This document shows, one piece after another, positions 12,279-33,906 of a DNA stretch of 33,906 bases (the first letter of the stretch is position 1; every line of letters begins with the position of its first letter). This DNA is from a virus. Below the pieces are notes generated by a model. The model saw only the letters and a list, made by a program, of their open reading frames with translations, made no database searches and was not told the DNA's origin. A program made the translations under genes and the position numbers. The stretch covers positions 1 to 33,906 of IMG/VR virus record IMGVR_UViG_3300029908_000096. The stretch is one strand, 5' to 3'.

Positions 12279-12538
12279 GGCTGATCTCCTTTATGTTTTG
12301 GATTGGATTCTACTACCCATTTTCTAAGGGTAAAAATATGTATTTTATATGCTGCGCTGATTTGTTTAGTGGAGTATAATTTGTCAGTGAGCAGTTTAAC
12401 AATATATCGTCTCGATGACTCCAAAACTGCTCGCCATTTACCGTTTCCATCCCTGAGACCTTTGATAGGTTTTAGAGCCCCATCGTCAGGGACAAATGTC
12501 ACGAAAAGATTTGATAGATTGGTCATACTACTTGTCAT
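12275..12538 (-). CDS. Small HTH-like protein upstream of terminase
   Basis: 87 aa. The C-terminal half (RRYIVKLLTDKLYSTKQIS, then YKIHIFTLRKWV) reads as a helix-turn-helix resembling homeodomain-like or transposase/small-terminase DNA-binding modules. The N-terminal half has no recognisable motif. It starts inside the end of the methyltransferase gene (11-base overlap) and its stop overlaps the ATA start of the small terminase, so the three are translationally linked. It may bind DNA in packaging or regulation. A second ATG lies four codons in and could be the true start. Confidence 0.65.
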   Translation of the reverse strand: MTSSMTNLSNLFVTFVPDDGALKPIKGLRDGNGKWRAVLESSRRYIVKLLTDKLYSTKQISAAYKIHIFTLRKWVVESNPKHKGDQP

Positions 12539-13736
12539 CGTTTAATTTTACTGCTTGTTGCCCGGTTAACTTTCCCCATCGTTTTATTATCATCTCACAG
12601 TATTCTGGCATAATTTCCATCATTAGGCAACGTCTACCTGATTTCTCAGCGGCCATAAGGGTTGTACCGGATCCACCAAAGGGGTCATAGATTAAATCTC
12701 CTTTTTTGCTGTTGTTCATGATTGGTCGCAACATACATTCAATCGGCTTTTGAGTGCTGTGTCCAACAGCTTCTTCTTTTTCTGAGTTTCCGAATGAATT
12801 ATTATTTTTGATTTCCCAGATTGTCGCTTGATCCCTAGCTCCCTGCCAATTGTGCTTTTTACCTTTTTTAACGACATAATGACAAGGTTCGTGTTGCCAA
12901 TGATAATCTCCTCTAGATATTGCGAAATGCTGCTTCACCCAAATTATCTGGTTGATCAAATCGTAACCACAAGTTTCGAGATTCTTTTGCACCTCTCCAC
13001 TATGCAAGGCTGCATGCCAAACATAAGCCACGTCGCCAGGAAATAAAGCATAAGTCTCAGACCAATCTATACGATCATCATTTGCCACCTTACCCTTGGA
13101 TCTTTCGCCGACTCCCAAGTCACGTCCTTCTCTCCACTCCGCATCATAACTGACACCATAAGGCGGATCTGTCACCATGAGGTTAGGCTTGTGCCCTGCC
13201 AACAATTTTGCTACATCGGTGGCCGAAGTACTATCACCGCAAAGCAATATGTGCGAGCCTAAAAGAAATTTATCGCCGAGCATTATTGAAGTTTGGACAG
13301 GAGGGTTCACTGTTTCATTATCTTGTTCTGTAACAGGTGGTGCAATATCAGGGAATAAATCGGCATTCATGCCCCATTCGATAAGATCATCGATCTCAAA
13401 ACAATTTGCGAGTATATCGAAATCAAATTCGCCAAATTCTAAATTATCTCTGATATTAAGTCTTTTTAATTCTTGTTCATCTAACCGGCGATTTGCGCGT
13501 AAGACCTCTATATGAGTCTCTGCGTGCCAGCCAGCGGCTATGAGGGCTTTCTTTCTAGCGTGGCCACCTATGATTGTATTATCGACATTGATGAGTATAC
13601 GGCTATGATAACCGTCTTGCTGAAGGCTCTTGACAAGATTAGTGAATGCAGTTTTGCTAATCTTGCGTGGATTATTTTCGTATTCCTTGAGTTCTTTTAT
13701 TGGGATAAGAACTTGTTCCCATTTGATATCAGCCAT
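12528..13736 (-). CDS. ParB-like nuclease domain fused to beta-class DNA methyltransferase
   Basis: A 402-aa fusion. Residues ~8-130 form a ParB/Spo0J-type N domain (IPIKELKEYENNPRK, GGHARKKALIAAGW). Residues ~150-402 form a DNA methyltransferase with motif IV DPPYG at 190-194 before the SAM-binding motif I DPFGGSGTT at ~351-359, the order seen in beta-class enzymes. DPPY suggests N6-adenine, though N4-cytosine cannot be excluded. No partner restriction gene is present, so it is probably an orphan phage enzyme that modifies phage DNA against host restriction or marks it for packaging. ATG start with a weak purine-rich site. It leads directly into the terminase block. Confidence 0.93.
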   Translation of the reverse strand: MADIKWEQVLIPIKELKEYENNPRKISKTAFTNLVKSLQQDGYHSRILINVDNTIIGGHARKKALIAAGWHAETHIEVLRANRRLDEQELKRLNIRDNLEFGEFDFDILANCFEIDDLIEWGMNADLFPDIAPPVTEQDNETVNPPVQTSIMLGDKFLLGSHILLCGDSTSATDVAKLLAGHKPNLMVTDPPYGVSYDAEWREGRDLGVGERSKGKVANDDRIDWSETYALFPGDVAYVWHAALHSGEVQKNLETCGYDLINQIIWVKQHFAISRGDYHWQHEPCHYVVKKGKKHNWQGARDQATIWEIKNNNSFGNSEKEEAVGHSTQKPIECMLRPIMNNSKKGDLIYDPFGGSGTTLMAAEKSGRRCLMMEIMPEYCEMIIKRWGKLTGQQAVKLNDDK

Positions 13737-15274: not shown

Positions 15275-16402
15275 TTAGCTCTGTTTATCCCATTTTCTGT
15301 ATTGATTAGGATGAATTTCTAGAGCGTCTATAATCTCTTGTTCAGACATCATTTCGCTTCTTTTCATAGCTTTAAATCTCTCAAACTTTGAAGGATTAGT
15401 TTTTTTAACTATATGGGTTTCTGTAGATTTCTCTTCAGGATCAACTTTGCTATAGGAAAAAACACCCTCTTCATTCATCTGAACCCTTAAGGGGATTTTA
15501 GACTTTGGTGAACATCTACGACCTTTATCAAAGCGCCATATTACATCTAATCCATCCTCTTCTTTCCAATCTTCAGGGGTTTCTAAAATGATTGAAGCAT
15601 CTAATGTATCAGATCTTGCATTAGTTCCTCGTGAACCCCCGCTCTTATTTAAGTGATGTAAAAAGATAACAGTGGAGCCATTATTTTTGGCTTTGGTTAA
15701 CTGCGGCAGGACAGTCTTGACCCAATGATCACGTTTATCTTCTTCGATAGATTTAAAGAGACAAGATAGATTATCCCAAATAATAACATTTATATTTGGG
15801 TGCAAAGCTAGAAAATCATTTATGCGTTTTATTGTATTAGGAGCAGCTAAATCTAAATCTATATTTTGCTCGGCATAAAGGTATTCCTGCGATAAAATGT
15901 GGATTTTTTTCAGCACGTCCGGATGTTCCGTATCGCATATAAGATTTATTCTGTCTCTAATATCGGCCATGTTCATCTCGCCATCAATGTAAAGCACTTC
16001 ACATTGACGATGGATTTTATAGCTGAGAAAAGCACCTTTAGAAACTAAGCAGCTCGCTAAATGCAATGCTAGAAATGTTTTCCCCCTGCCGGCTGCTGCG
16101 GCAATTTGAGCACATCCACCCAAAGGTAACCAATCGAGGATTAGTTTCGTTTTAGGGATCTTTATTGTTAATAATTCTCCAACGGTTAGTATAGGTAGAG
16201 GTTCCGGAAACATTTGATCGTATAAATTTTCGTAATAAGAAACATTATATTTAATGCCGCCTTCATCTACTTGACACCTGTAATATTCCAGCATGGCCTC
16301 TGGGTCGCTATGCACGCCTAAATCCATATCGAATAGTATTTTAGAAGCTCTCATCTTTCTGCGGGTACGATAATCTGCGGGTGGTAAGTTGTTTTTTGAC
16401 AT
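15275..16402 (-). CDS. RecA-fold ATPase, RepA/DnaB-like replicative helicase candidate (AAA_25 type)
   Basis: 375 aa. Walker A AAAAGRGKT at ~101-109 (its first Gly is Ala), YIDGEM at ~138-143, Walker B NVIIWDN at ~204-211, and the sensor-like motif FLHHLNKSGGSRGT at ~247-260. This order matches hexameric RepA-type helicases of plasmids and phages (AAA_25). The ~90-residue N-terminus and the C-terminal end (SEQEIIDALEIHPNQYRKW, a possible winged-helix-like helix pair) are unassigned. It probably unwinds DNA for host polymerase, as the phage has none of its own. The start ATG has GAG eight bases upstream. Single-gene unit with its own terminator and upstream inverted repeats. Confidence 0.85.
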   Translation of the reverse strand: MSKNNLPPADYRTRRKMRASKILFDMDLGVHSDPEAMLEYYRCQVDEGGIKYNVSYYENLYDQMFPEPLPILTVGELLTIKIPKTKLILDWLPLGGCAQIAAAAGRGKTFLALHLASCLVSKGAFLSYKIHRQCEVLYIDGEMNMADIRDRINLICDTEHPDVLKKIHILSQEYLYAEQNIDLDLAAPNTIKRINDFLALHPNINVIIWDNLSCLFKSIEEDKRDHWVKTVLPQLTKAKNNGSTVIFLHHLNKSGGSRGTNARSDTLDASIILETPEDWKEEDGLDVIWRFDKGRRCSPKSKIPLRVQMNEEGVFSYSKVDPEEKSTETHIVKKTNPSKFERFKAMKRSEMMSEQEIIDALEIHPNQYRKWDKQS

Positions 16403-16628: not shown

Positions 16629-16886
16629 TTAGACGACAAGAGGTGGAGTCAATTTGTTACGTTGATGTAGTTCTACTTCCAGTCGTTTGACCAATTCACG
16701 CATTTCTTCAAGCTCTTTCATCCTTAGTTGACATTCAGCATCAATGAGACTTATAAGCTTGTCGAAGGTTTTATTGTCGAGTAGCGCTAGATTATCGGGG
16801 GTGAGTTTTGAGTAATCAATTGAATAGTATTTTTTATCTTCAGCTGACTTTGATGAATCGATTGAAACTGTCTCTCTTGCGTTCAT
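16629..16886 (-). CDS. Small coiled-coil protein, 85 aa
   Basis: A polar N-terminus (MNARETVSIDSSKSAEDKK) is followed by a helical part and a C-terminal coiled coil (~52-77, RMKELEEMRELVKRLEVEL). No known domain. The ATG lies inside the ankyrin gene (47-base overlap) without a clear SD, so either translation is coupled or a later start is used. Third and last gene of the leftward trio with the HTH and ankyrin proteins; the downstream hairpin at 16492-16558 probably ends the transcript. Confidence 0.6.
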   Translation of the reverse strand: MNARETVSIDSSKSAEDKKYYSIDYSKLTPDNLALLDNKTFDKLISLIDAECQLRMKELEEMRELVKRLEVELHQRNKLTPPLVV

Positions 16887-17112
16887 ATGGTATTTTGTTA
16901 TGCTCTTCGAGTTCTAAAGCTGATAATTTTGCGCCCTTTCGGATTAGTAAGTCAACTATTTTATGCCTTTTCATCGATTTAGCCCAATATAGGAGAGTAT
17001 GATTGTTGTTATCTAATGCATCTAAATTGTAAGTGGTATTCTTAAGCATTTCTTCAGCTTCGGCTGGCCGATTTTTGATAATAACATTCATCATTTGTTC
17101 GTAGGTGGTCAT
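16840..17112 (-). CDS. Ankyrin-repeat protein, 90 aa
   Basis: Contains one clear ankyrin repeat (~34-66: NNNHTLLYWAKSMKRHKIVD, then LLIRKGAKLS) flanked by degenerate half-repeats at both ends (EAEEMLKNT.., HNKIPYERKRDSF). Ankyrin repeats bind other proteins, and phage examples often target host or eukaryotic partners. It starts one base after the HTH gene stop, with AGAGGT overlapping that stop. A second ankyrin protein lies in the opposite, rightward operon (18784-19182). The partner is unknown. Confidence 0.75.
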   Translation of the reverse strand: MTTYEQMMNVIIKNRPAEAEEMLKNTTYNLDALDNNNHTLLYWAKSMKRHKIVDLLIRKGAKLSALELEEHNKIPYERKRDSFNRFIKVS

Positions 17113-17113
17113 C

Positions 17114-17320
17114 TTACCTCTTGTATGTGCTTTCAGGGGTTACTTCATATGTAGAACCACTAATAAATCTTATGATATCTTCTAGTTTATATTTAATTTT
17201 ACCTCTATCTTTGGTAAATTTTATATGACGTTTTTGCATACGCCATTTACGTAAAGTTTGATCGCTTACTTTGAGATAGCCAGCGGCTTCTTTTGAAGTT
17301 AACCATGTTACTTCTTCCAT
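17114..17320 (-). CDS. HTH_17 / excisionase-like DNA-binding protein
   Basis: 68 aa starting MEEVTWLTSKEAAGYLKVSD. The start at 17318-17320 is fixed by AAGGA at a good spacing; an open frame extends upstream to 17419 but would cross the promoter. Residues ~5-50 form a MerR/Xis-like winged helix (TSKEAAGYLKVSDQTLRKWR, then YKLEDIIRFI). Proteins of this type act as excisionases or as small regulators. With no integrase in the genome, a regulatory role at the overlapping promoters immediately upstream (17344-17385) is more likely. First gene of the leftward trio. Confidence 0.85.
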   Translation of the reverse strand: MEEVTWLTSKEAAGYLKVSDQTLRKWRMQKRHIKFTKDRGKIKYKLEDIIRFISGSTYEVTPESTYKR

Positions 17321-17343: not shown

Positions 17344-17385
17344 TTGACATTTGAGCTATTATATATATAATAACACCGTTGTCAA
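17344..17385. promoter_or_regulatory. Mirror-image overlapping divergent promoters
   Basis: Plus strand: TTGACA (17344-17349), 16 bases, TATAAT (17366-17371). Minus strand: TTGACA (17380-17385), 16 bases, TATAAT (17358-17363). Both match sigma70 consensus at all twelve positions. The centre TATTATATATATAATA (17357-17372) is a perfect palindrome shared by both -10 regions, and the outer TTGACA/TGTCAA arms are symmetric too. The plus promoter feeds the early operon (17409 onward), the minus promoter the HTH-ankyrin trio. Two polymerases cannot bind at once. Confidence 0.88.
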
Positions 17386-17408
17386 GATTTGTTACAGAAA
17401 GTTTAATC

Positions 17409-17711
17409 ATGGATCTCAAACCTATTTGTCTAGTTAAAATGGCTAATGAACACTTCCACTTTAGATCCCATAAGTTAACACAATGGTCTTTTTATGAAAT
17501 GAACGAAATTACAATGCTAGGAGCTCTAAGCTACTACTTCCCTAAATTACAGCCTCTTGCTATATATTCAGTTAAGAAGCCTGTATTAGCGATCTCTTAC
17601 GCTTTCTTAGCTTACAGTTCTGATAAGATAATAGAATTTGCCGAATCGTATTACGGCCATCAAGATTGTTCGATCGAGCCGGTTGGTCAAGATAATTCCG
17701 ATTATGTGTAA
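17409..17711 (+). CDS. First early-operon protein, 100 aa, unknown
   Basis: Starts at ATG 17409, about 30 bases after the predicted transcription start; the longer frame from 17379 begins almost at that start and is unlikely. The protein (MDLKPICLVKMANEHFHFRS ..) has aromatic-rich segments (LSYYFPKLQPLAIYSVKK, ISYAFLAYS) and a polar C-terminus, with no clear TM or motif. First-gene position directly behind a consensus promoter suggests an immediate-early function such as host takeover or regulation. No family recognised; the SD is poor. Confidence 0.65.
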   Translation: MDLKPICLVKMANEHFHFRSHKLTQWSFYEMNEITMLGALSYYFPKLQPLAIYSVKKPVLAISYAFLAYSSDKIIEFAESYYGHQDCSIEPVGQDNSDYV

Positions 17712-17776: not shown

Positions 17777-18151
17777 ATGCAACAAAAAGCATCAAATCTT
17801 TTCAAGTCTATTTTTGGGTCTATGTGGTCAACTGCAAAAAGCATGATTTTCACTTTATTTTGTATGCTTGCAGTTTATAAAATCTGGTTATGGATTCCTT
17901 TATTTGGAGTTGTGATAGGATTAATTACATTTTTTGCTTGGTGTAGAGTGCTCAGTACAAATGATGGAGATTTTACTGTAGCCGATGTGTTCAAATCTTT
18001 CTGGTATTGGGTAAGAATTAGCACTTTTACTTTATTTTGTTGTCTCATTATATTTGGATGTTGGAAAATTAATGCTATGTTCGCTGTCCTGATGACAATA
18101 GTTGCTCTTGGAGTATGGTATAGTGTTGTTACAGATGAGGATGTAGAATGA
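17777..18151 (+). CDS. Internally duplicated four-TM membrane protein
   Basis: 124 aa with about four hydrophobic segments in two matching halves. Half one, ~9-64: FKSIFGSMW then TLFCMLAVYKIWLW and a hydrophobic stretch ending CRVLSTNDGD. Half two, ~72-124: FKSFWYWVRIST then TLFCCLIIFGCW and a stretch ending WYSVVTDED. The repeat of FKS..W..TLFC plus two TMs plus an acidic end shows internal duplication. Likely an inner-membrane protein made early, possibly altering host envelope or excluding other phages; function unproven. SD AGGGAG is strong, and the stop overlaps the next start as ATGA. Confidence 0.75.
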   Translation: MQQKASNLFKSIFGSMWSTAKSMIFTLFCMLAVYKIWLWIPLFGVVIGLITFFAWCRVLSTNDGDFTVADVFKSFWYWVRISTFTLFCCLIIFGCWKINAMFAVLMTIVALGVWYSVVTDEDVE

Positions 18152-18528
18152 AATATTACTTATTCGACACAAGAATCCTGAGTATTGACCCGATTGAAAA
18201 ATTCTATTTCGATCAAATTATCCAATCCATGCTTGACGATATTGTGCAAGACGAAAATGTTCTAGTCTTTCAATATGACCCATTCACTCAGAGGATATAT
18301 GAAGCCTACCGTGGTGAACTAGAGGGTTATTGGTTCCATGTTTTTGCTGATGAATTACATGAAGACGTCAACATCGATATCAAAACTGCCTCTCGCTACC
18401 TGAAATACTTCCAACGTGTTAGGCCGGAGGAATGTCTGAATTATTTATTTTCAATCAATTCAACAGGAACTAAACTTAATCTTTTATCTGGGAATATCGA
18501 TGAACCAAGAAATAGTCTCCCTTCTTAA
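18148..18528 (+). CDS. Hypothetical early protein, 126 aa
   Basis: Starts MKYYLFDTRILSIDPIEKFY, ATGA-coupled to the membrane protein. It is acidic with mixed helix and strand, ending NLLSGNIDEPRNSLPS. No TM, signal peptide or motif recognised. Coupling suggests it is made with the membrane protein and may be a soluble partner. The 40-aa gene starts inside its last ten codons. Confidence 0.65.
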   Translation: MKYYLFDTRILSIDPIEKFYFDQIIQSMLDDIVQDENVLVFQYDPFTQRIYEAYRGELEGYWFHVFADELHEDVNIDIKTASRYLKYFQRVRPEECLNYLFSINSTGTKLNLLSGNIDEPRNSLPS

Positions 18529-18622
18529 TGAAGCAAATAGAAAATTAATAAATGTTGAATTGGAATTAGATGAATTACATTTAGCTCTAGTTCGCCTTGA
18601 ACAACAATTATTAGGAAAATAA
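18500..18622 (+). CDS. Microprotein, 40 aa, coiled coil
   Basis: MNQEIVSLLNEANRKLINVE followed by a Leu/Glu heptad-like run ending EQQLLGK: a single amphipathic coiled-coil helix. GGGA lies six bases before ATG, the gene overlaps the previous one by 29 bases, and the next ATG follows its stop by one base. Regular heptads and tight packing support translation. Possibly an oligomerising inhibitor; no family. Confidence 0.6.
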   Translation: MNQEIVSLLNEANRKLINVELELDELHLALVRLEQQLLGK

Positions 18623-18623
18623 G

Positions 18624-18797
18624 ATGATCGATAATAAAACTGTGATCGAAATGCACCGACAATTACATTTAACCTCATGGAAACTTAGCGAAACAGCCGA
18701 TAAATTTGCGGAAATGACTTTAATGTTGGCGGAAATGGAAAATAACATAATAACAATGACTCGCTTGATAGGAGAATTACACTGTGACGGAGAATGA
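18624..18797 (+). CDS. Microprotein, 57 aa, helical
   Basis: MIDNKTVIEMHRQLHLTSWK then a Met/Leu/Glu-rich helix (ETADKFAEMTLMLAEMEN) and a short end with one Cys. AGGA lies eight bases before ATG, in the end of the previous microprotein, and the ankyrin gene starts within its last five codons. A helical partner to the 40-aa protein is conceivable but not shown. Confidence 0.6.
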   Translation: MIDNKTVIEMHRQLHLTSWKLSETADKFAEMTLMLAEMENNIITMTRLIGELHCDGE

Positions 18798-19182
18798 ACG
18801 ATTATTGGAAGCTTGTAAGAACGGCAATCTAGCTGCTGTTGCCGCTGCTGTTGCTGATGGCGCTAATGTCAACGTGGTGGATGTCGCAAACAAATGTCCT
18901 TTAATCTATGCCTGCAAAGCTGGTCATTACCTGATCGTCAAGGGATTGCTTGAATGTGGCGCCTCACCTTTTGTTGCAGATTTGACAGGCAATACACCTC
19001 AATGTTATGCGCGTCATAGCGGCAGTATACCTACTTATGAATTGATCAACTCAGCTATCAATAAAGCATGTATACAAGCTCGTCAACCTTCCAACCGCAC
19101 TCCAACTCCTCCGGTGCTACGTCCTATCGAATTAGATTTTGATATGTGTTTCGGGTCACAACCTGGCTCAATGACTAGATAA
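18784..19182 (+). CDS. Ankyrin-repeat protein, 132 aa
   Basis: Two ankyrin repeats: ~4-33 (ERLLEACKNGNLAAVAAAVA, DGANVN) and ~36-68 (CPLIYACKAGHYLIVKGLLE, CGASPF), then the start of a third (TGNTPQCYARHSG). A proline-rich tail (~100-117) ends DFDMCFGSQPGSMTR. The start is GTG at 18784 with AGGAG at good spacing; there is no ATG in a suitable position. It is likely a protein-protein interaction module aimed at a host factor. Together with the ankyrin protein at 16840-17112, both arms of the switch region encode one. No TM or secretion signal is seen. Confidence 0.85.
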   Translation: MTENERLLEACKNGNLAAVAAAVADGANVNVVDVANKCPLIYACKAGHYLIVKGLLECGASPFVADLTGNTPQCYARHSGSIPTYELINSAINKACIQARQPSNRTPTPPVLRPIELDFDMCFGSQPGSMTR

Positions 19183-19247
19183 GGACTTGAACTATGCAAA
19201 CAGATAGTCCATAAAATATAATATTGTCTGAAAAATAGAGGTAAGTA

Positions 19248-20075
19248 ATGAATAAAGAATTAACGATAAAAAGTAATGTTATCGAACAAATAGTGGTTGA
19301 TGGGGATCTCAAAAGCTTGGATTCAGAACAGCGCATACAATATTACAGGAGTATGTGTAAAACATTTAATCTGGATCCCTTAACAAAACCTTTTGAGTTT
19401 ATTGAACTCAATAAAAAATTAGTTCTATATGTTACCAAAAATGCCTGCGATCAATTGAGGCGCACACACGGCATTTCTATCACCAAGCTAATCAAATATA
19501 GAGAGGGCGACGCATATTTTGTTGAAGCTCATGCACAAGACAGAGAAGGTCGCATAGATGTCTCAACAGCTGCAATAATGCTTGTTACTGAAGATAAGTT
19601 TTACTACGATAAAATCACCAAGGAACGTGTGTTGTATCAAAAAGGGGGTGACCTATTAGTAGGAGTTGACCTAATAAATGCATTTTTAAAAGCAGAATCG
19701 AAAGCGAAACGCCGTGTTACTCTATCTATGGGTGGTTTAGGGTTGCCGGATCCTGACGACATTGAAATGATGGCGCAAGAATCAACGCAACTAGCTAATA
19801 CTGAAGAAGTAGCCCACGCGATAGTAGAAGAAAGCCAAGCTCGTAAGAATTCCTACATAATCGATGAAAGTTTTTTAACTGGAATGGATGTAGGTACAAT
19901 GGTAACAAATAAAATTAACTCTATAGAGAAATTAGCACAGCTTCAAGAATATCTTGAATGGAAACAAGCAAATAAGGAAGGCCTCAAAGCATTCTGCAAA
20001 GATAATCCTGAAATTTGCATGGGGTTTGGTGAATTGATCCAAGCGAAACAAAGAGAAATACAAGATTCCGAATGA
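19248..20075 (+). CDS. Candidate single-strand annealing recombinase (RecT-like)
   Basis: 275 aa. The N-terminal part contains YYRSMCKTFNLDPLTKPFEF, then LNKKLVLYVTKNACDQLRRT and, further on, FLKAESKAKRRVTLSMGGLG. The pattern 'C..LGL.PLTKPF', 'KL.LY.TK..C.QLR' and 'A..KAETKAKRR.TLS..GLG' is typical of a phage family placed with RecT/Bet-like annealing proteins, which pair complementary strands during replication and repair. The C-terminus is acidic and helical. A good SD (AGAGGT) and a TATAAT-like box (~19214-19219) precede it. Its neighbour, a Gp157-family protein, commonly accompanies recombination genes. Confidence 0.65.
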   Translation: MNKELTIKSNVIEQIVVDGDLKSLDSEQRIQYYRSMCKTFNLDPLTKPFEFIELNKKLVLYVTKNACDQLRRTHGISITKLIKYREGDAYFVEAHAQDREGRIDVSTAAIMLVTEDKFYYDKITKERVLYQKGGDLLVGVDLINAFLKAESKAKRRVTLSMGGLGLPDPDDIEMMAQESTQLANTEEVAHAIVEESQARKNSYIIDESFLTGMDVGTMVTNKINSIEKLAQLQEYLEWKQANKEGLKAFCKDNPEICMGFGELIQAKQREIQDSE

Positions 20076-20152
20076 TATTTGTTGCTTTCATTCTAGCATT
20101 CACTGCTACTCTTACTGTTCTATATTTTATATACGCAATGGGGACTTTATGA
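20072..20152 (+). CDS. 26-aa single-TM microprotein
   Basis: MIFVAFILAFTATLTVLYFI plus YAMGTL: one hydrophobic helix with almost no tails. Its ATG overlaps the RecT-like stop (ATGA) and its own stop overlaps the next ATG (ATGA), a chain of coupled starts that random sequence would rarely give. It is probably a small inner-membrane peptide; the role is unknown. Confidence 0.6.
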   Translation: MIFVAFILAFTATLTVLYFIYAMGTL

Positions 20153-20421
20153 CTACAAATATTGAATCATCAGAAGATATTTTAAAAGCGATCGAAAAAC
20201 ATATAGCCGAGATCAGAGGAAAAAAACTTAATGTTTGTGCAGCCATCGTAGATTTAACAGTTGAAGACGATATATCTTACGGTGTATGTTGCGGTGAAAA
20301 GGAAGAAATACTCGATAGCGTCATGACGATATTGGATAAGTTTGAAACTGTCGAGCTATTGCTTTTTTCGCGTATGTTAGACCACTTTTTAAACTGTAGA
20401 GCTGCTGCCAATGACAGATGA
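20149..20421 (+). CDS. Hypothetical early protein, 90 aa
   Basis: MTTNIESSEDILKAIEKHIA onward, helical with a central segment AAIVDLTVEDDISYGVCCGE and C-terminal FSRMLDHFLNCRAAANDR. Four Cys residues are spaced without a clear zinc pattern. It lies between the RecT-like and Gp157-like genes with coupled start (ATGA) and an 11-base overlap at its end. GGGG lies five bases before ATG. A replication or recombination accessory role is suggested by place only. Confidence 0.65.
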   Translation: MTTNIESSEDILKAIEKHIAEIRGKKLNVCAAIVDLTVEDDISYGVCCGEKEEILDSVMTILDKFETVELLLFSRMLDHFLNCRAAANDR

Positions 20422-20953
20422 ACCAGATACTTTGCCAACCAAGTCGTGCTCATCAACGAAATGGTCGCTTGACCAGTTAATATTTCTTGAAGATTGTTTT
20501 GGCGATTCTAAAACCTTAAGAGCGGGCATTGATGATATTATTTCTGAAACACATCCTGCCGCTTTGCCCGAATTAATGAATAATATTCTTTATTACATTG
20601 ATGAAAACGAAAGTTTAGAGGAATCGTTGGATGCGCAGATCAGAGCATTAACAGAACGTCGTGATCGATTTAAGAAACAAGCTGAAAATTTGCGCGAAAC
20701 TATGAAACATGTCTTTAACAAATTTTCACTTACGAAACTTATTTGTCCGCTCGGTACCGTTTCGAGGGTTACTAAAACCGCCTCGAAGCTCGTTATAGAA
20801 GATGAATCCGCTATACTTATGCAAAGACCCGACTTGTTCACAAAGCAAGCTCCTAAGCTCAATAAAATCCTCCTTATTGATGAATTGAAAGCAGGTGGGG
20901 ATATCGAAGGAGCAAAACTTGTGGATTCTACCACTATAGCTGTACGAAAATAA
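20411..20953 (+). CDS. Siphovirus Gp157-family protein
   Basis: 180 aa. Residues ~55-105 form a coiled coil (DENESLEESLDAQIRALTER, RDRFKKQAENLRETM). The C-terminal part has the family pattern of a 'G..' strand followed by V..DE...P.., then K..KLNKILLIDELKAGG..IEGAKLVDSTTIAVRK (quoted in pieces), matching Gp157 proteins found in many phages near recombination genes. Their biochemical role is not settled; streptococcal versions have been linked to phage resistance. Starts 11 bases within the previous gene. Last gene of the main early operon. Confidence 0.85.
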   Translation: MTDEPDTLPTKSCSSTKWSLDQLIFLEDCFGDSKTLRAGIDDIISETHPAALPELMNNILYYIDENESLEESLDAQIRALTERRDRFKKQAENLRETMKHVFNKFSLTKLICPLGTVSRVTKTASKLVIEDESAILMQRPDLFTKQAPKLNKILLIDELKAGGDIEGAKLVDSTTIAVRK

Positions 20954-22082: not shown

Positions 22083-23918
22083 TTAACTTAGATATTCTGT
22101 GATAACAACGAACCCTGGTGAACCACCACCGCCATCAGCGCCTGAGCCGGCAGTCCCGCTGCATCCACCTGAACCGCCCGAACCCTCAGAAGAACCTGAC
22201 GGAGTACTTCCTGCGGATTGTCCACTCGAGGAATTACAGATATTGGGATAAAACCATCCTCCCCCGAAGATATAGCCTGCCCCACCATTGGGTGCAATAA
22301 TAATAGGAGTTTGCACTTGTCCTACGGGATAGTTAGTAGCGCCATCCAGAGACTTGACGAGAGTGACCCCACTTCCAGGGGTGGCAGTTCCACCATTCAC
22401 GGCGCTGTAGTCAGGAGAAGTACTAACGCTAGCCTGGCCGCCCAGTCCTCCTGAGCAGCTAATTAATGTTCCAATGCTAGTTGTGCCGCCTTGGCTGCCT
22501 GAAGTACTAGGAGAAGTAGCTCCATTACCACCCCCTCCGATTGTGATAGTTTTGCTCGATCCTATTTGTGTCGCTGTTAAATATGCAGAACCATAACCGC
22601 CAGCAGCACCTCCCTGACTCCATACATCTCCAGCATTACAGTAACCCCCTCCACCACCGGCGCCTTGAACCTCTACAAAAGCAAAAATCATGTTCGCATG
22701 AGGCGTGTATGTACCGCTGACACCAAATGTTTGAACATTGGTAGCAACGGCGCCATTAGATACTCCTCCTAACGCACTATCAATGCCGGCAAGATTGCTC
22801 CTGACGTCAGTTGCGGATGCAGTATAATGGACGGGTGTATAATCTGAATTTATTTGCTGTGCATTCCCTTGATAAGTTACTGTCATGCCGGGATAAGAGG
22901 CGTAAGAATTACCACTGCAATCATCGATAAACAATGCAGGAGTGTGCCCGCCCGCAGCAGTTCCGGTCACATTAAATCCGCCCATCATACCTTGAACATA
23001 AACGCTCGCAGAGCCAATAACAGTTATATCCAATTGCAGAAGAGCCGTGGAAACACCACCAATAAATGTTAAGGTCGATACTCCGGCTCCCGTATTCACA
23101 CCATTTGCAAAAGTCAGCGATGTTGTATTCCCTAAATATTGGCACGAAGTAAATGTTCCTTGTTCGAGTAAGAAATTACTTGAGCCGGCTAAGAAGGTAG
23201 TATTATTACAATTTAAATTTGCAGCTGATCCAGTTCCTGTGTTAGAGAAAGCTGTATTTCCATTTAAAGTTACATTATTTAGATTTAGAGTGGAAAGTAT
23301 TGAACCCGTTGATAAAGTCCATGTAAAATCTGAATTGAATAGTAGATTAGTCAAATTTATTTCATCACCACTAGTCGGTGTTCCGCCAATAGTGATATCA
23401 TTAGAGATCGTAGCTATGCCATTTAAGGCGGTGATACTTATATTCGGATAACCGGTTATTGTCCCCGAATCAGGTGACGCACCGGTTTGACTAGATGATA
23501 GAACAATCGTCATAGGATTAGTATAACTTGCTGTGGCATGCATTGTTGTATAGGCGTGTTGCAAGGTTAACCAAGGCGACCCTATAGATCCATTGTTAGA
23601 ATCTGATCCATTGACATAATCAACAAAAAATGTAGTAGGATTAGCACTGCCGCCTCCACCTGATGCAGCAATGGTTATAGAACCTGACGCATTAGTAATC
23701 GTAACGCCAGTCCCGGCCGTTAATGTAGCGCCTACCGGATCGCCAGCAGTAGTACCTATTAGCACCTCCCCAGCTGTTAAAACAATAGGAGTTACTGGGC
23801 TCGCACCTTCTGCTATCATCACGCCATGAGCAGTAGGAGCCGAAACGCCTATACCGCCTTCTGTTGTATTCAGCGGTGTAGAAGAATTAGCATTAATTGA
23901 ATTACTAATAATCGTCAT
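22083..23918 (-). CDS. Long tail fibre: repeat-family N-terminus, beta-helix, glycine-rich tip
   Basis: 611 aa in three parts. Residues ~1-90 carry the shared array module (INANSSTPL, GGIGVSAPTAHG, GEVLIGTTAGDPVGATLTAG, ASGSITI). Residues ~97-380 begin FFVDYVNGSDSNNGSIGSPW, a typical entry to a right-handed beta-helix, followed by Asn/Thr/Ser-rich rungs (LNLNNVTLNGNT). From ~395 the sequence SGTYTPHANMIFAFVEVQGA opens the glycine-rich domain and VVITEYLS closes it, as in the protein at 1444-2406. Likely the main host-recognition fibre, possibly with glycan-binding or cleaving beta-helix; no catalytic residues can be claimed. SD GAGG. Last large virion gene. Confidence 0.8.
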   Translation of the reverse strand: MTIISNSINANSSTPLNTTEGGIGVSAPTAHGVMIAEGASPVTPIVLTAGEVLIGTTAGDPVGATLTAGTGVTITNASGSITIAASGGGGSANPTTFFVDYVNGSDSNNGSIGSPWLTLQHAYTTMHATASYTNPMTIVLSSSQTGASPDSGTITGYPNISITALNGIATISNDITIGGTPTSGDEINLTNLLFNSDFTWTLSTGSILSTLNLNNVTLNGNTAFSNTGTGSAANLNCNNTTFLAGSSNFLLEQGTFTSCQYLGNTTSLTFANGVNTGAGVSTLTFIGGVSTALLQLDITVIGSASVYVQGMMGGFNVTGTAAGGHTPALFIDDCSGNSYASYPGMTVTYQGNAQQINSDYTPVHYTASATDVRSNLAGIDSALGGVSNGAVATNVQTFGVSGTYTPHANMIFAFVEVQGAGGGGGYCNAGDVWSQGGAAGGYGSAYLTATQIGSSKTITIGGGGNGATSPSTSGSQGGTTSIGTLISCSGGLGGQASVSTSPDYSAVNGGTATPGSGVTLVKSLDGATNYPVGQVQTPIIIAPNGGAGYIFGGGWFYPNICNSSSGQSAGSTPSGSSEGSGGSGGCSGTAGSGADGGGGSPGFVVITEYLS

Positions 23919-23933
23919 TTAAACCTCTTAAGT

Positions 23934-24527
23934 TTATACGTAAGTTATATTTCCGACAGAAGCCAATACTTGGAAAGTAGTATTAGCAACGGTACATAAA
24001 AGTCTAATAGTATCGCCTTTTGAGGTAGAACTAATCGATCCTCCGGTACCTACTGTGGTCGTTACATCACCAAAAACGATAGATTGCCCTGCGTTTTGAG
24101 CGACAACCCATCCACCTGCAGTTGTTCCTGTGGTAATTTCAGTAATCGATCCGTATGCGATTGTGGTGGGCAAAGTAAAGGTCACAGCTCCAGCATTACT
24201 AGCGGTATAGCTATTATTTGCTGCGACGGTTTGAGTTGTAGCAGTTACATCAGTCCACACTTCACCTGTAGAAGTATTGGCGATCGTAATAGCACCGGAA
24301 GCGCTAGTTATTGAGATGCCCGAACCTGCGGTTAGAGTTGTAGCTGCAGGATCACTAGCGGTAGTCCCCACTAAGATTTGTCCGGCTGTCAGAACGATCG
24401 GGTTATACGCGGATGCGCCTTCTGAAATTAATATCCCATGAGCTGAAGGCGATGAAATCCCTGATCCACCATTGACCGTAGCCAGTGGATGGGAGGCGTT
24501 GGCATTAATTGCATTTTGTGTAGTCAT
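23934..24527 (-). CDS. Modular adhesin/appendage paralogue 5 (197 aa)
   Basis: Array member with both shared modules. N-module ~1-88: AINANASHPLATVNGGSGIS, GQILVGTTASDPAATTLTAG, ASGAITIANT. C-module ~105-197: YTASNAGAVTFTLPTT, GGWVVAQNAGQSIVFGDVTT, GTGGSISSTSKGD, ending VGNITYV. Beta-rich, no membrane or signal sequence. It stands between paralogue 4 and the 611-aa fibre, which shares its N-module. Likely a trimeric tail or head appendage binding the cell surface; the C-module resembles short fibre tips. SD AAGGAG. Confidence 0.75.
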   Translation of the reverse strand: MTTQNAINANASHPLATVNGGSGISSPSAHGILISEGASAYNPIVLTAGQILVGTTASDPAATTLTAGSGISITSASGAITIANTSTGEVWTDVTATTQTVAANNSYTASNAGAVTFTLPTTIAYGSITEITTGTTAGGWVVAQNAGQSIVFGDVTTTVGTGGSISSTSKGDTIRLLCTVANTTFQVLASVGNITYV

Positions 24528-24539
24528 TATTATTACTCC

Positions 24540-25139
24540 TTAAACTATTGTTAAATTACCTACAGAACCTATTACTTGCCATGCGGTGTTCGCAATAAAA
24601 CACTGAAGGTAAATACTATCTCCCAGATTAGTAGAACTGATTGAGCCGCCTGTCCCAGTGGTCGTTACTCGAGATCCCAATCTAATATATTGACCGGCAT
24701 TTTGTGCTATTGACCATTCGGCCAACATAGTTTGGCCGTTAGCAAGTTGGATCATCGATCCATAAGCAGCAGTTGTCGGTAAAGTGAAAACGGCTGTCGT
24801 AGCTGAATACGAATTTAAATATGCGCTATTGGAGCTCATGGATACCGTAGGACTAGATGTAACGCTCCATAAATCAGATGGAAAGGTGTTAGTAATGGTG
24901 ATAGATCCGGATGCATTTGTTATGCTTATCCCATTTCCAGCTGTTAAAGTCCCGACTACAGGATCGCCCGAAGTTGTGCCGATCAATATTTGACCGGCGC
25001 CAAGAACTATTGAGTTGATTGGACTTGTCCCTTCACCGATTGCAACGCCATATTGGGTGGGAGATGAAACGCCAGTACCACCGTCAATGACGGCTAAAGG
25101 AGAAGTAGAATTTGCATTTGCTGAATTGTTCGTTGTCAT
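24540..25139 (-). CDS. Modular adhesin/appendage paralogue 4 (199 aa)
   Basis: Start set at 25137-25139, where ATGA overlaps the stop of the previous paralogue; an upstream frame to 25178 would lie entirely within that gene. N-module: SANANSTSPLAVIDGGTGVS, GQILIGTTSGDPVVGTLTAG. C-module: YSATTAVFTLPTTAAYG, AEWSIAQNAGQYIRLGSRVT, ending VGNLTIV. The C-module is the most diverged among the four two-module copies (AEWS for GGWK/V), which could indicate a different ligand. Confidence 0.75.
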   Translation of the reverse strand: MTTNNSANANSTSPLAVIDGGTGVSSPTQYGVAIGEGTSPINSIVLGAGQILIGTTSGDPVVGTLTAGNGISITNASGSITITNTFPSDLWSVTSSPTVSMSSNSAYLNSYSATTAVFTLPTTAAYGSMIQLANGQTMLAEWSIAQNAGQYIRLGSRVTTTGTGGSISSTNLGDSIYLQCFIANTAWQVIGSVGNLTIV

Positions 25140-25732
25140 GTTACTGTTATATTCCCTGTCGATGCTACAAGTTGCCACTTAGTATTAGCTACATAACAAA
25201 CTAAAGTAATTGAATCTCCTTGTGCAGTAGAAGCCAAGGAACCGCCTGTGCCGCTGGTCGTTGTGACAGAACCGAACTGCACGATTTGTCCTGCGTTTTG
25301 TGCAAGCTTCCAACCACCACTTGTTGAACCTGTCATTATTGTAAATGTAGCTCCGTAGATTGAAGTCGTTGGTAAGGTAAAGGTGACTAATCCCGAATTA
25401 CTAGCCGAATATGACATCCCGATGACTATGGTTTGGGTAGTGGCTGTTACATCGACCCATGAGGCTTCAGGCAAAGTATTAGAAATTACGATAGAACCGG
25501 AAGTACTTGCTATCGCTATCCCAAATCCAGCCGTCAAAGTTGCTCCGTGAGCAGTATTGGCAGCTGCTACACCTATTAATGTGGCTCCGGCTCCTAATGC
25601 TATTTGAGCTAAGGTACTTGCATTCCTACCGCCTAAAACCGTATGAGCTGTTAATGTCGATAATTGGGTACCACCATATTGTGCCTTGAGCGGATTAGTC
25701 GAATTAGCGTTTATATTATTTTGTGTTGTCAT
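25136..25732 (-). CDS. Modular adhesin/appendage paralogue 3 (198 aa)
   Basis: N-module here is the odd one: NINANSTNPLKAQYGGTQLS, LTAHTVLGGRNASTLAQIAL, then TLTAGFGIAIASTSGSIVIS. C-module: YSASNSGLVTFTLPTTSIYG, GGWKLAQNAGQIVQFGSVTT, ending TGNITVT. ATGA overlaps at both ends (with 25729 upstream and 25139 downstream) make translation coupled. Nucleotide identity with paralogue 2 is high around the GTAGAAGCCAAGGA segment (25227-25241 and 25816-25830), consistent with recent duplication or exchange. Confidence 0.75.
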   Translation of the reverse strand: MTTQNNINANSTNPLKAQYGGTQLSTLTAHTVLGGRNASTLAQIALGAGATLIGVAAANTAHGATLTAGFGIAIASTSGSIVISNTLPEASWVDVTATTQTIVIGMSYSASNSGLVTFTLPTTSIYGATFTIMTGSTSGGWKLAQNAGQIVQFGSVTTTSGTGGSLASTAQGDSITLVCYVANTKWQLVASTGNITVT

Positions 25733-26322
25733 GTTACCGCTATATTCCCTACTGATGATAGTAAAGTCCAGGAGAGATTGGCCAAATTACATACTAAGAT
25801 TACTCCGTCTCCTTGCGCTGTAGAAGCCAAGGAGCCACCTGTGCCACTAGTTGTGCTCAACGTCCCGAACTTAATACTTTGCCCTGCTGATTGAGCTATT
25901 TTCCACCCACCTGATGTTGTCCCCGTCATTACTTGCTGAATAGTGCCCATCGCTGCAGTTGCTGGCAAATTAAAGGTTACCACCCCTGCGTTACTAGCGG
26001 TGTATGCATTATTGACGGACATTGTAGCTGAAGTACCAGTAACATCTGTCCAGGCCTCCGCAGGTTGTGTATTAGCTATTGTTAAAGTCCCTGATCCACC
26101 GGTGCGACTAATCCCTGTGCCAGCCGTAACTGTGGTAGCAACAGGCGATCCGCTAGTGGTGCCAACAAGTAATTGACCGGATGTGAGATTAACGGTTGTG
26201 AAAGGGGATGCGCCTTGAGCGATTAGAATATTACCAGCCGTTGGACTACTTAATCCTGTCCCACCATTTGCCGAACTCAATGGTGTTGCAGCATTAGCAT
26301 TTATGGCATTATTGACAGTCAC
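25729..26322 (-). CDS. Modular adhesin/appendage paralogue 2 (197 aa)
   Basis: N-module: AINANAATPLSSANGGTGLS, GQLLVGTTSGSPVATTVTAG, SGTLTIANTQ. C-module: YTASNAGVVTFNLPATAAMG, GGWKIAQSAGQSIKFGTLST, GTGGSLASTAQGD, ending VGNIAVT. The start is GTG (26320-26322) with GGGG six bases upstream; no ATG fits. The first copy with both modules, ATGA-coupled to paralogue 3. Same inferred role as the other members. Confidence 0.75.
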   Translation of the reverse strand: MTVNNAINANAATPLSSANGGTGLSSPTAGNILIAQGASPFTTVNLTSGQLLVGTTSGSPVATTVTAGTGISRTGGSGTLTIANTQPAEAWTDVTGTSATMSVNNAYTASNAGVVTFNLPATAAMGTIQQVMTGTTSGGWKIAQSAGQSIKFGTLSTTSGTGGSLASTAQGDGVILVCNLANLSWTLLSSVGNIAVT

Positions 26323-32500: not shown

Positions 32501-33906
32501 TTACCTCGGCGTTGAAGGTTTAATTTCTTCAAATAATTTACCCATCAGATAATTGCCATTCACTACATTACTTGTGAAAATATATTGTCTTTCTCTTCCT
32601 ATCATCATCGGATCGATCTTAACAGTAGTAGGTGTCAAATTGAAAGTTTGAGTATGGACATAAGGGCTCTGTGCGAACTCCTTTACATTTATTTGTACCG
32701 TCATATTTTGTGAGATAATTATATCTGGAAACAAACTATATATTATATAAGTATTATCACCTTCTTGGATCTGAGTATAATTAGTTTGAGCGTAAGAATT
32801 CATTGGTGCAAATTGATTGTCCCACGGATCAGTGTAGAAATTGAAATTATCGTTATAATCGTTCAGCCCTTTGTTATGCTCAAATAGACGTCCATCTTGC
32901 ATCACTGTAATTAAGGTGGCAATTCCTCCGCCTCCTGCAACAGTACTTGTACTATAAACGCCAGTCACGGGAACATTAACTTCGATGTATCCCCCGAATA
33001 TGTACCGTATTGTAGTTGTCCCATTAATCTCCCCAGAAGTGAAGCCATCTACGCCTGTTGAGCCTGAAATTGTGACGGATTGACCCACTGCAAGATTATC
33101 ACCGGTATAGTTAATCGCTAAGATTTGAGTGCCTACCGATATTGATGCCCCTCCCCCTGTGCCGGAACTCGTTGCATTTGCTCCTGCCACGAAAGTTATG
33201 GATGCCACACCTAATCCTGCGCTTCCAAATTCACCGAGGCCAAATAAACCCGCGCCGAATCCTTCTTCTGTAGTAACTGATTGGATAGTTCTTGCTCCGT
33301 TAATGTTAGCTGCCAATATTCCGTTTGTTGTGGTTGCTCCGCTTATGAAAATGGAATCACCGGCTTGCAAATAAACATTCCCGAAATCTATCACCATCTG
33401 TACAATATTCGATGTGTTCACTGTAGTTAAAGGATTAGCTCCTATTGTGAAGAAATAGGTGGCTATCCCGTTAGGAGCTGCAATTATATCAGTGCCACCG
33501 CTTTGAATTAATAAAGGGAATTCATTGATATTAACCGGCTCTTCTGAAGCAGTCCTTGCATTAGTACCTATCGTCCAGTGTCCTTCTTTGTAATTATAAT
33601 CTACGTAATTATTTGGCTCAACATCAGTTCCTGCGCAATAATAAAACCGGACTGTTGACCATTCAGTATCCACATGCACAAAGCACTTAGCGTATTCACT
33701 CCAATTAAGGTTGTCAAATACGTAACGTTTGACGGTATTATTGGGTAAAACACTTACAGTATATCCATCAAACCCATAGAAGTCTCCCTGACCCATCCAG
33801 AATACAGCATCCTCAACGATGCCTCGAGCTTTTGGAGCAATAATGCCATCTGTTGAAAAAAGCTTTCTAGGTAGCCATATATTGGGTAGCCCTACAAACT
33901 CCATAG
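32501..33906 (-). CDS. Large tail hub / P22 gp10-like protein (C-terminal part of the 904-aa gene)
   Basis: Continues the gene starting at 1438; the ATG near 33904 is codon 438 of the joined frame, not a start. It carries KLFSTDGIIAPKARGIVEDA, VFWMGQGDFYGFDGY and YVFDNLNWSEYAK, a pattern frequent in tail hub/nozzle proteins ('IAP.SVV..DG.VFWMG..DFY.YDG'). A Gly/Ser/Thr-rich insert (~605-735) holds repeated beta units (GDSIFISGATTTNGI, GQSVTISGSTGVDGF) that resemble a small beta domain twice. The C-terminus (DPMMIGRERQYIFTSNVV) is charged. Ends three bases before the next gene's start. Confidence 0.75.
   Translation of the reverse strand, partial: MEFVGLPNIWLPRKLFSTDGIIAPKARGIVEDAVFWMGQGDFYGFDGYTVSVLPNNTVKRYVFDNLNWSEYAKCFVHVDTEWSTVRFYYCAGTDVEPNNYVDYNYKEGHWTIGTNARTASEEPVNINEFPLLIQSGGTDIIAAPNGIATYFFTIGANPLTTVNTSNIVQMVIDFGNVYLQAGDSIFISGATTTNGILAANINGARTIQSVTTEEGFGAGLFGLGEFGSAGLGVASITFVAGANATSSGTGGGASISVGTQILAINYTGDNLAVGQSVTISGSTGVDGFTSGEINGTTTIRYIFGGYIEVNVPVTGVYSTSTVAGGGGIATLITVMQDGRLFEHNKGLNDYNDNFNFYTDPWDNQFAPMNSYAQTNYTQIQEGDNTYIIYSLFPDIIISQNMTVQINVKEFAQSPYVHTQTFNLTPTTVKIDPMMIGRERQYIFTSNVVNGNYLMGKLFEEIKPSTPR
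33778..33906. repeat. Terminal direct repeat, right copy (circular overlap)
   Basis: Matches 1-129 except at 33893 (T here, C at 116). Trimming one copy gives a circle of 33,777 bp and an intact 904-codon tail gene. It does not resemble a terminal repeat used for replication, because it lies within a gene. Confidence 0.93.

Follow-up and report, generated by a model that had tools for sequence, protein, structure and literature searches.

A phage genome carries two opposed promoter motifs that mirror each other between two divergent sets of genes, which raises the question of whether such a site acts as a bistable switch, as the first-pass annotation had suggested, or divides transcription in some other way. 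We analyzed a 33,906-base IMG/VR virus record over its whole length (hereafter, the window). Bases 1-129 of the window are repeated at 33778-33906 with 1 mismatch, and because of this 129-base end overlap the record is probably a complete genome, circularly assembled or terminally redundant. Among its late genes, a P22-type portal, a Phage_capsid_3 major head protein, and a large terminase were matched. Taken as a whole, the explanation that we favor and hold to be likely is that this phage, which has P22-like head genes, carries the mirrored promoter where its two early transcription units meet (Table 1). Elsewhere, positions 12528-13736 encode a DNA methyltransferase whose N-terminal part is ParB-like; no restriction partner was noticed. 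Positions 22083-26322 encode tandem paralogous Gly/Ser/Thr-rich proteins that start with 'MTTQNAINANA...', a family that is multiplied in the relative G001 too (at about 30.4-34.4 kb).

Table 1. Features around the mirrored promoter, in window coordinates; G001 is the relative described in the text.
Feature	Position	Strand	Remarks
AAA_25 / RepA-like helicase-primase-type ATPase	15275..16402	-	PF13481, 69.5 bits
85-aa protein, third left gene	16629..16886	-	57% identical in G001; no family found
Ankyrin-like 90-aa protein, second left gene	16840..17112	-	Ank_2 below curated cut-off
68-aa HTH_17 protein, first left gene	17117..17320	-	Pfam PF12728; PHROGs excisionase/regulator
Rightward -35 box TTGACA	17344..17349	+	Aligned place in G001: TTGATT
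Perfect 16-bp palindrome TATTATATATATAATA	17357..17372	.	Opposed -10 boxes, 2-bp gap, and 1 flanking base per side
Leftward -10 box TATAAT	17358..17363	-	Predicted start near 17351 (A); G001: TAAAAT, 17-bp spacer
Rightward -10 box TATAAT	17366..17371	+	Predicted start near 17378 (G); G001: TATGAT, 16-bp spacer
Leftward -35 box TTGACA	17380..17385	-	G001: identical TTGACA
Conserved block TTTGTTACAGAAA (TTTGTnACnGAAA)	17388..17400	+	Adjoins -35 box of leftward promoter
100-aa protein, first right gene	17409..17711	+	47-48% identical in G001
Rest of right early operon	17777..20953	+	Membrane-like protein, small proteins, ankyrin protein (18784-19182)
Right early operon, further genes	within 17777..20953	+	Conserved 275-aa protein, small protein, Gp157-like protein

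As described in the first-pass annotation, TTGACA and TATAAT boxes were found on both strands at 17344-17385, with the -10 boxes inside a shared perfect palindrome. Each arm matched all twelve consensus bases with a 16-bp spacer, 1 bp below the 17-bp optimum, in a sigma70 scoring for which the sigma preferences of the host are assumed. When spacers of 14-20 bp were scanned, these were the only two 12/12 sites in 33.9 kb. No extended -10 TG was present in the mirrored promoter. The -35 and -10 boxes share one symmetry axis (17364/17365), so the earlier claim of symmetric -35 arms holds; the 42 bp given for the distance between them is the outer span. Within the 42-mer, all 14 mirrored base pairs matched in the -35 boxes and the core and 2 of 7 matched elsewhere, and beyond the -35 boxes the symmetry dropped to background. 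The symmetry is restricted to the positions contacted by sigma70 and does not form a general dyad. A different reading takes the palindrome as a protein-binding dyad, either an operator or a replication element, rather than as two promoters. The perfect palindrome itself would suit it, lying as it does inside an inverted repeat with 24-nt arms that are 75% complementary. By contrast, the mirrored positions are exactly the promoter boxes, with little pairing between them, and the 42-mer did not fold into a hairpin convincingly better than shuffled sequences (z -1.7).

The -10 boxes point apart and are separate, a geometry that predicts diverging transcripts. With 7 bp assumed from each -10 box, the two predicted starts fall 27 bp apart, each on a purine. 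The promoter is placed between divergent genes starting at 17320 (left) and 17409 (right), which gives predicted leaders of ~31 nt; the left leader contains a Shine-Dalgarno-like AGAAGG ahead of the ATG.

A scan with the terminase yielded a 35.7-kb relative (L006, referred to as G001; terminase identity 79%), the sole relative found having both flanking genes. In G001 the HTH gene (45% identity) likewise diverges from the first right-hand gene. At its junction, the rightward arm, TTGATT-16-TATGAT, matched 9/12 consensus bases and the leftward arm, TTGACA-17-TAAAAT, 11/12; the -10 boxes are again separate, with an identical 2-bp gap. Between the two genomes, 22/26 positions were identical in the promoter elements and 6/16 in the spacers (Fisher p = 0.0025, for a single genome pair whose alignment was anchored on the elements). 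The overall symmetry in G001 was 18/43. Judged from this one relative, the overlapping opposed layout is conserved and the perfect mirror is not, so that the search for conserved symmetry advised in the first-pass annotation bore out the former only. Since G001 retains the promoter boxes with the overall symmetry lost, its junction argues further against the protein-binding dyad, which we consider very improbable. A 13-mer (TTTGTnACnGAAA) next to the leftward -35 box occurs once per genome, at the same place, in the window and in G001, and is a candidate operator or UP-like element, which bears on the suggestion in the first-pass annotation that the two operons compete without classic operators.

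When either the HTH protein or the AAA protein served as query, no close relative was found in IMG/VR. With two-sequence alignments, the IMG/VR scan returned G001 alone for the first right-hand protein, and G001 plus two weak loci (L208 and L209) for the HTH protein. In INPHARED, the first right-hand protein had no match and the HTH protein had four (37-44% identity), three of which were mycobacteriophage genes.

We also asked how often such a site would arise by chance. Simple composition models gave an expectation of ~2e-8 (40% GC) to 2e-7 (25% GC) mirrored pairs per window. Over a collection of millions of contigs chance is far less extreme, and the position between divergent genes and the layout kept in the relative therefore outweigh the raw probability. 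The exact geometry had no IMG/VR match outside the window. In GTDB, with spacers of 16-18 bp permitted, one match was found where composition alone would give 0.13 to 1.7, about the chance expectation. This match (L085:1320-1362, in a Clostridia MAG) has the same geometry and ends 7 bp before a tRNA-Met gene; it was rejected as a comparable junction because it lies upstream of tRNA genes, not between divergent protein genes. A sister geometry, with shared or overlapping -10 boxes and full consensus on both strands, was found at 4 IMG/VR sites. One of these, L210:1508-1556 (ATTATATAAT) on another viral contig, is a full-consensus pair with overlapping -10 boxes that stands where genes for an HNH endonuclease and a terminase diverge. 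When IMG/VR consensus promoters followed by TGTCAA were surveyed, none among the matches listed (81 sites) had an opposite -10 box at 6/6; the clusters seen at some distances in this survey contain related contigs. Because matches in IMG/VR and GTDB were few, the double full consensus is a rare feature rather than a module found widely. The site had been called unusual: this applies to full consensus on both arms, whereas symmetric promoters as such are common in bacteria and account for 19% of E. coli RNAs according to the figure cited in PMC12825309.

The genes on either side were then considered. The first left gene had been described as encoding a MerR/Xis-like HTH protein, and an HTH_17 domain was confirmed (PF12728, 42.3 bits; cut-off, 27). 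An AlphaFold model built from a two-sequence alignment (pLDDT 75.9) showed helices at 9-16 and 20-28 and a beta hairpin. The nearest PDB chains in a Foldseek search were the RdfS excisionase (E 5.8e-3) and BldC (E 9.8e-3 to 4.5e-2), with nothing at E <= 0.001, and the modeled fold tentatively resembles these proteins. When PDB sequences were searched with the HTH alignment, two matches came up (E 0.05-0.09) and were treated as noise. The 90-aa ankyrin-like protein had no tblastn match in G001. The AAA_25 / RepA-like ATPase gene likely belongs further down the left operon, and a terminator-like site lies shortly past it (15174-15162). On the right, the first protein was predicted to be all-helical (pLDDT 76.7), and profile and fold searches gave no match to families, DNA-binding families, or folds. 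Ankyrin-repeat proteins flank the promoter on both sides, the left one below the Pfam cut-off (Table 1).

Which polymerase would use this site? Phage sigma region 4 was found in neither the window genome nor G001, and the host sigma70 polymerase is therefore the enzyme expected at the mirrored promoter. A search with an RNA-polymerase family (PF00940) was silent in every control genome and is uninformative on a phage-encoded polymerase. We think it probable, from motifs and gene layout, that the site is an overlapping bidirectional host-sigma70 promoter at which mutually exclusive polymerase positions would split early transcription between two operons. Host RNA polymerase would bind the common 42 bp in either orientation, and one bound polymerase would shut out the other because the footprints of both arms coincide. 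Initiations would thereby be divided between the left operon (HTH, ankyrin-like protein, and AAA ATPase) and the right early operon with its Gp157-like gene, in a ratio set by relative binding and escape rates. With both arms at consensus, occupancy should suffice for real competition, so that whatever favors one arm would reduce the other. The likeliest biasing factor would be the Xis/BldC-like HTH protein encoded on the left, acting by negative or positive autoregulation. The placement of the opposed promoters for the left HTH and right early operons, and the proposal that they could not be jointly occupied, are in line with what the first-pass annotation had put forward.

It is also conceivable that the promoters overlap without meaningful competition, both operons being turned on at infection and the overlap reflecting compact packing. 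All five E. coli bidirectional promoters tested were basally too weak to compete (PMC12825309), and the rightward arm in G001 falls three bases short of consensus. However, neither arm here departs from consensus, and in E. coli a strengthened -35 box on one arm did produce competition, the opposite transcript being suppressed (PMC12825309); we regard overlap without competition as rather unlikely. A similarly small chance is given to a natural, regulator-poor either/or promoter whose near-symmetric arms at full consensus are tuned so that the orientation of the host polymerase would itself commit each infection, or each genome copy, to one of two early programmes, while the HTH protein would shift the proportions.

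Would competition amount to a switch? From the mechanism we infer that mutual exclusion makes a splitter and not a memory device: the choice would be remade at each binding, and successive choices would be independent because polymerase exclusion stores nothing unless feedback is added. In a toy simulation of exclusion, lag-1 autocorrelation was about 0; this follows from the assumptions of the model and serves as illustration only. The left HTH protein could supply such feedback. In a true bistable switch, this protein would reinforce the left operon or repress the right, a right-hand product would do the reverse, and exclusion would sharpen the choice. Such an arrangement is suggested by the HTH protein encoded by the first left gene and conserved together with the promoter, and by the conserved 13-mer as a possible HTH site; overlapping divergent promoters and a regulator do form part of a genetic switch in pLS20 (PMC4207663). 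Against it, no tyrosine integrase (PF00589), serine recombinase (PF00239), or CI-like HTH_3 was matched in the window or G001, with positive controls, and the first right-hand protein matched no DNA-binding family or fold. The missing CI-like HTH_3, integrase, and recombinase weigh against lysogeny control, which does not by itself prove a lytic life style. In the lambda-type CI/Cro switch, the promoters flank operators and the early transcription units diverge. The early units of the present phage diverge too, but its promoters coincide, and neither CI/Cro-type repressors on both arms nor integration machinery was found. The bistable switch proposed at the outset is thus unsupported, exclusion alone having no memory, and we consider it improbable.

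In published work, the usual bidirectional promoters were too weak for polymerases to compete at them, and competition appeared once one arm had been strengthened (PMC12825309), whereas the phage promoter, by its sequence, is naturally strong on both arms. It would therefore lend itself directly to testing how transcription is divided by polymerase exclusion alone, and whether a phage exploits this at its early junction. A compact divergent promoter of equal strength is a possible application.

Among known systems, the bidirectional promoters that Warman, Middlemiss, Grainger, and colleagues described in E. coli and Salmonella (PMC12825309, PMC10268837) likewise combine opposed sigma70 promoters with divergent transcripts, and often lie between divergent genes. 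There, polymerase binds in either orientation and steric exclusion precludes simultaneous binding (PMC12825309). The phage site has opposed -10 and -35 elements on the same DNA, but at full consensus on both strands and at an early junction. Its -10 boxes are adjacent and not shared as theirs are, both here and in G001. Bidirectional promoters are defined by divergent starts 7-25 bp apart (PMC10268837), mostly 18, 10, or 23 bp; the predicted phage distance of 27 bp lies just outside this range. Because of these two differences, we call the phage promoter a variant of this class.

SoxR at PsoxS/soxR (PMC12825309), a small MerR-type regulator of winged-HTH type, is encoded beside a bidirectional promoter, as is the putative winged-HTH protein of the phage, but it acts on a 19-bp spacer. 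The phage spacers are already near optimal, and activation by spacer realignment is therefore unlikely. The closest published parallel that we found, pairing a regulator with an operon across the two arms, is Pc/Pr of pLS20 (PMC4207663), where fully overlapping divergent promoters serve a regulator gene on one arm and the main operon on the other. The pLS20 pair consists of a strong and a weak promoter, whereas both phage arms appear strong, and it adds regulator-mediated looping between two operators, whereas the phage has just a candidate 13-mer. Earlier work already covers bidirectional promoters and the competition that arises at strong -35 elements (PMC12825309); what is new here is that each arm is at full consensus, that the -10 boxes lie side by side instead of being shared, and that the site is located at a phage early junction.
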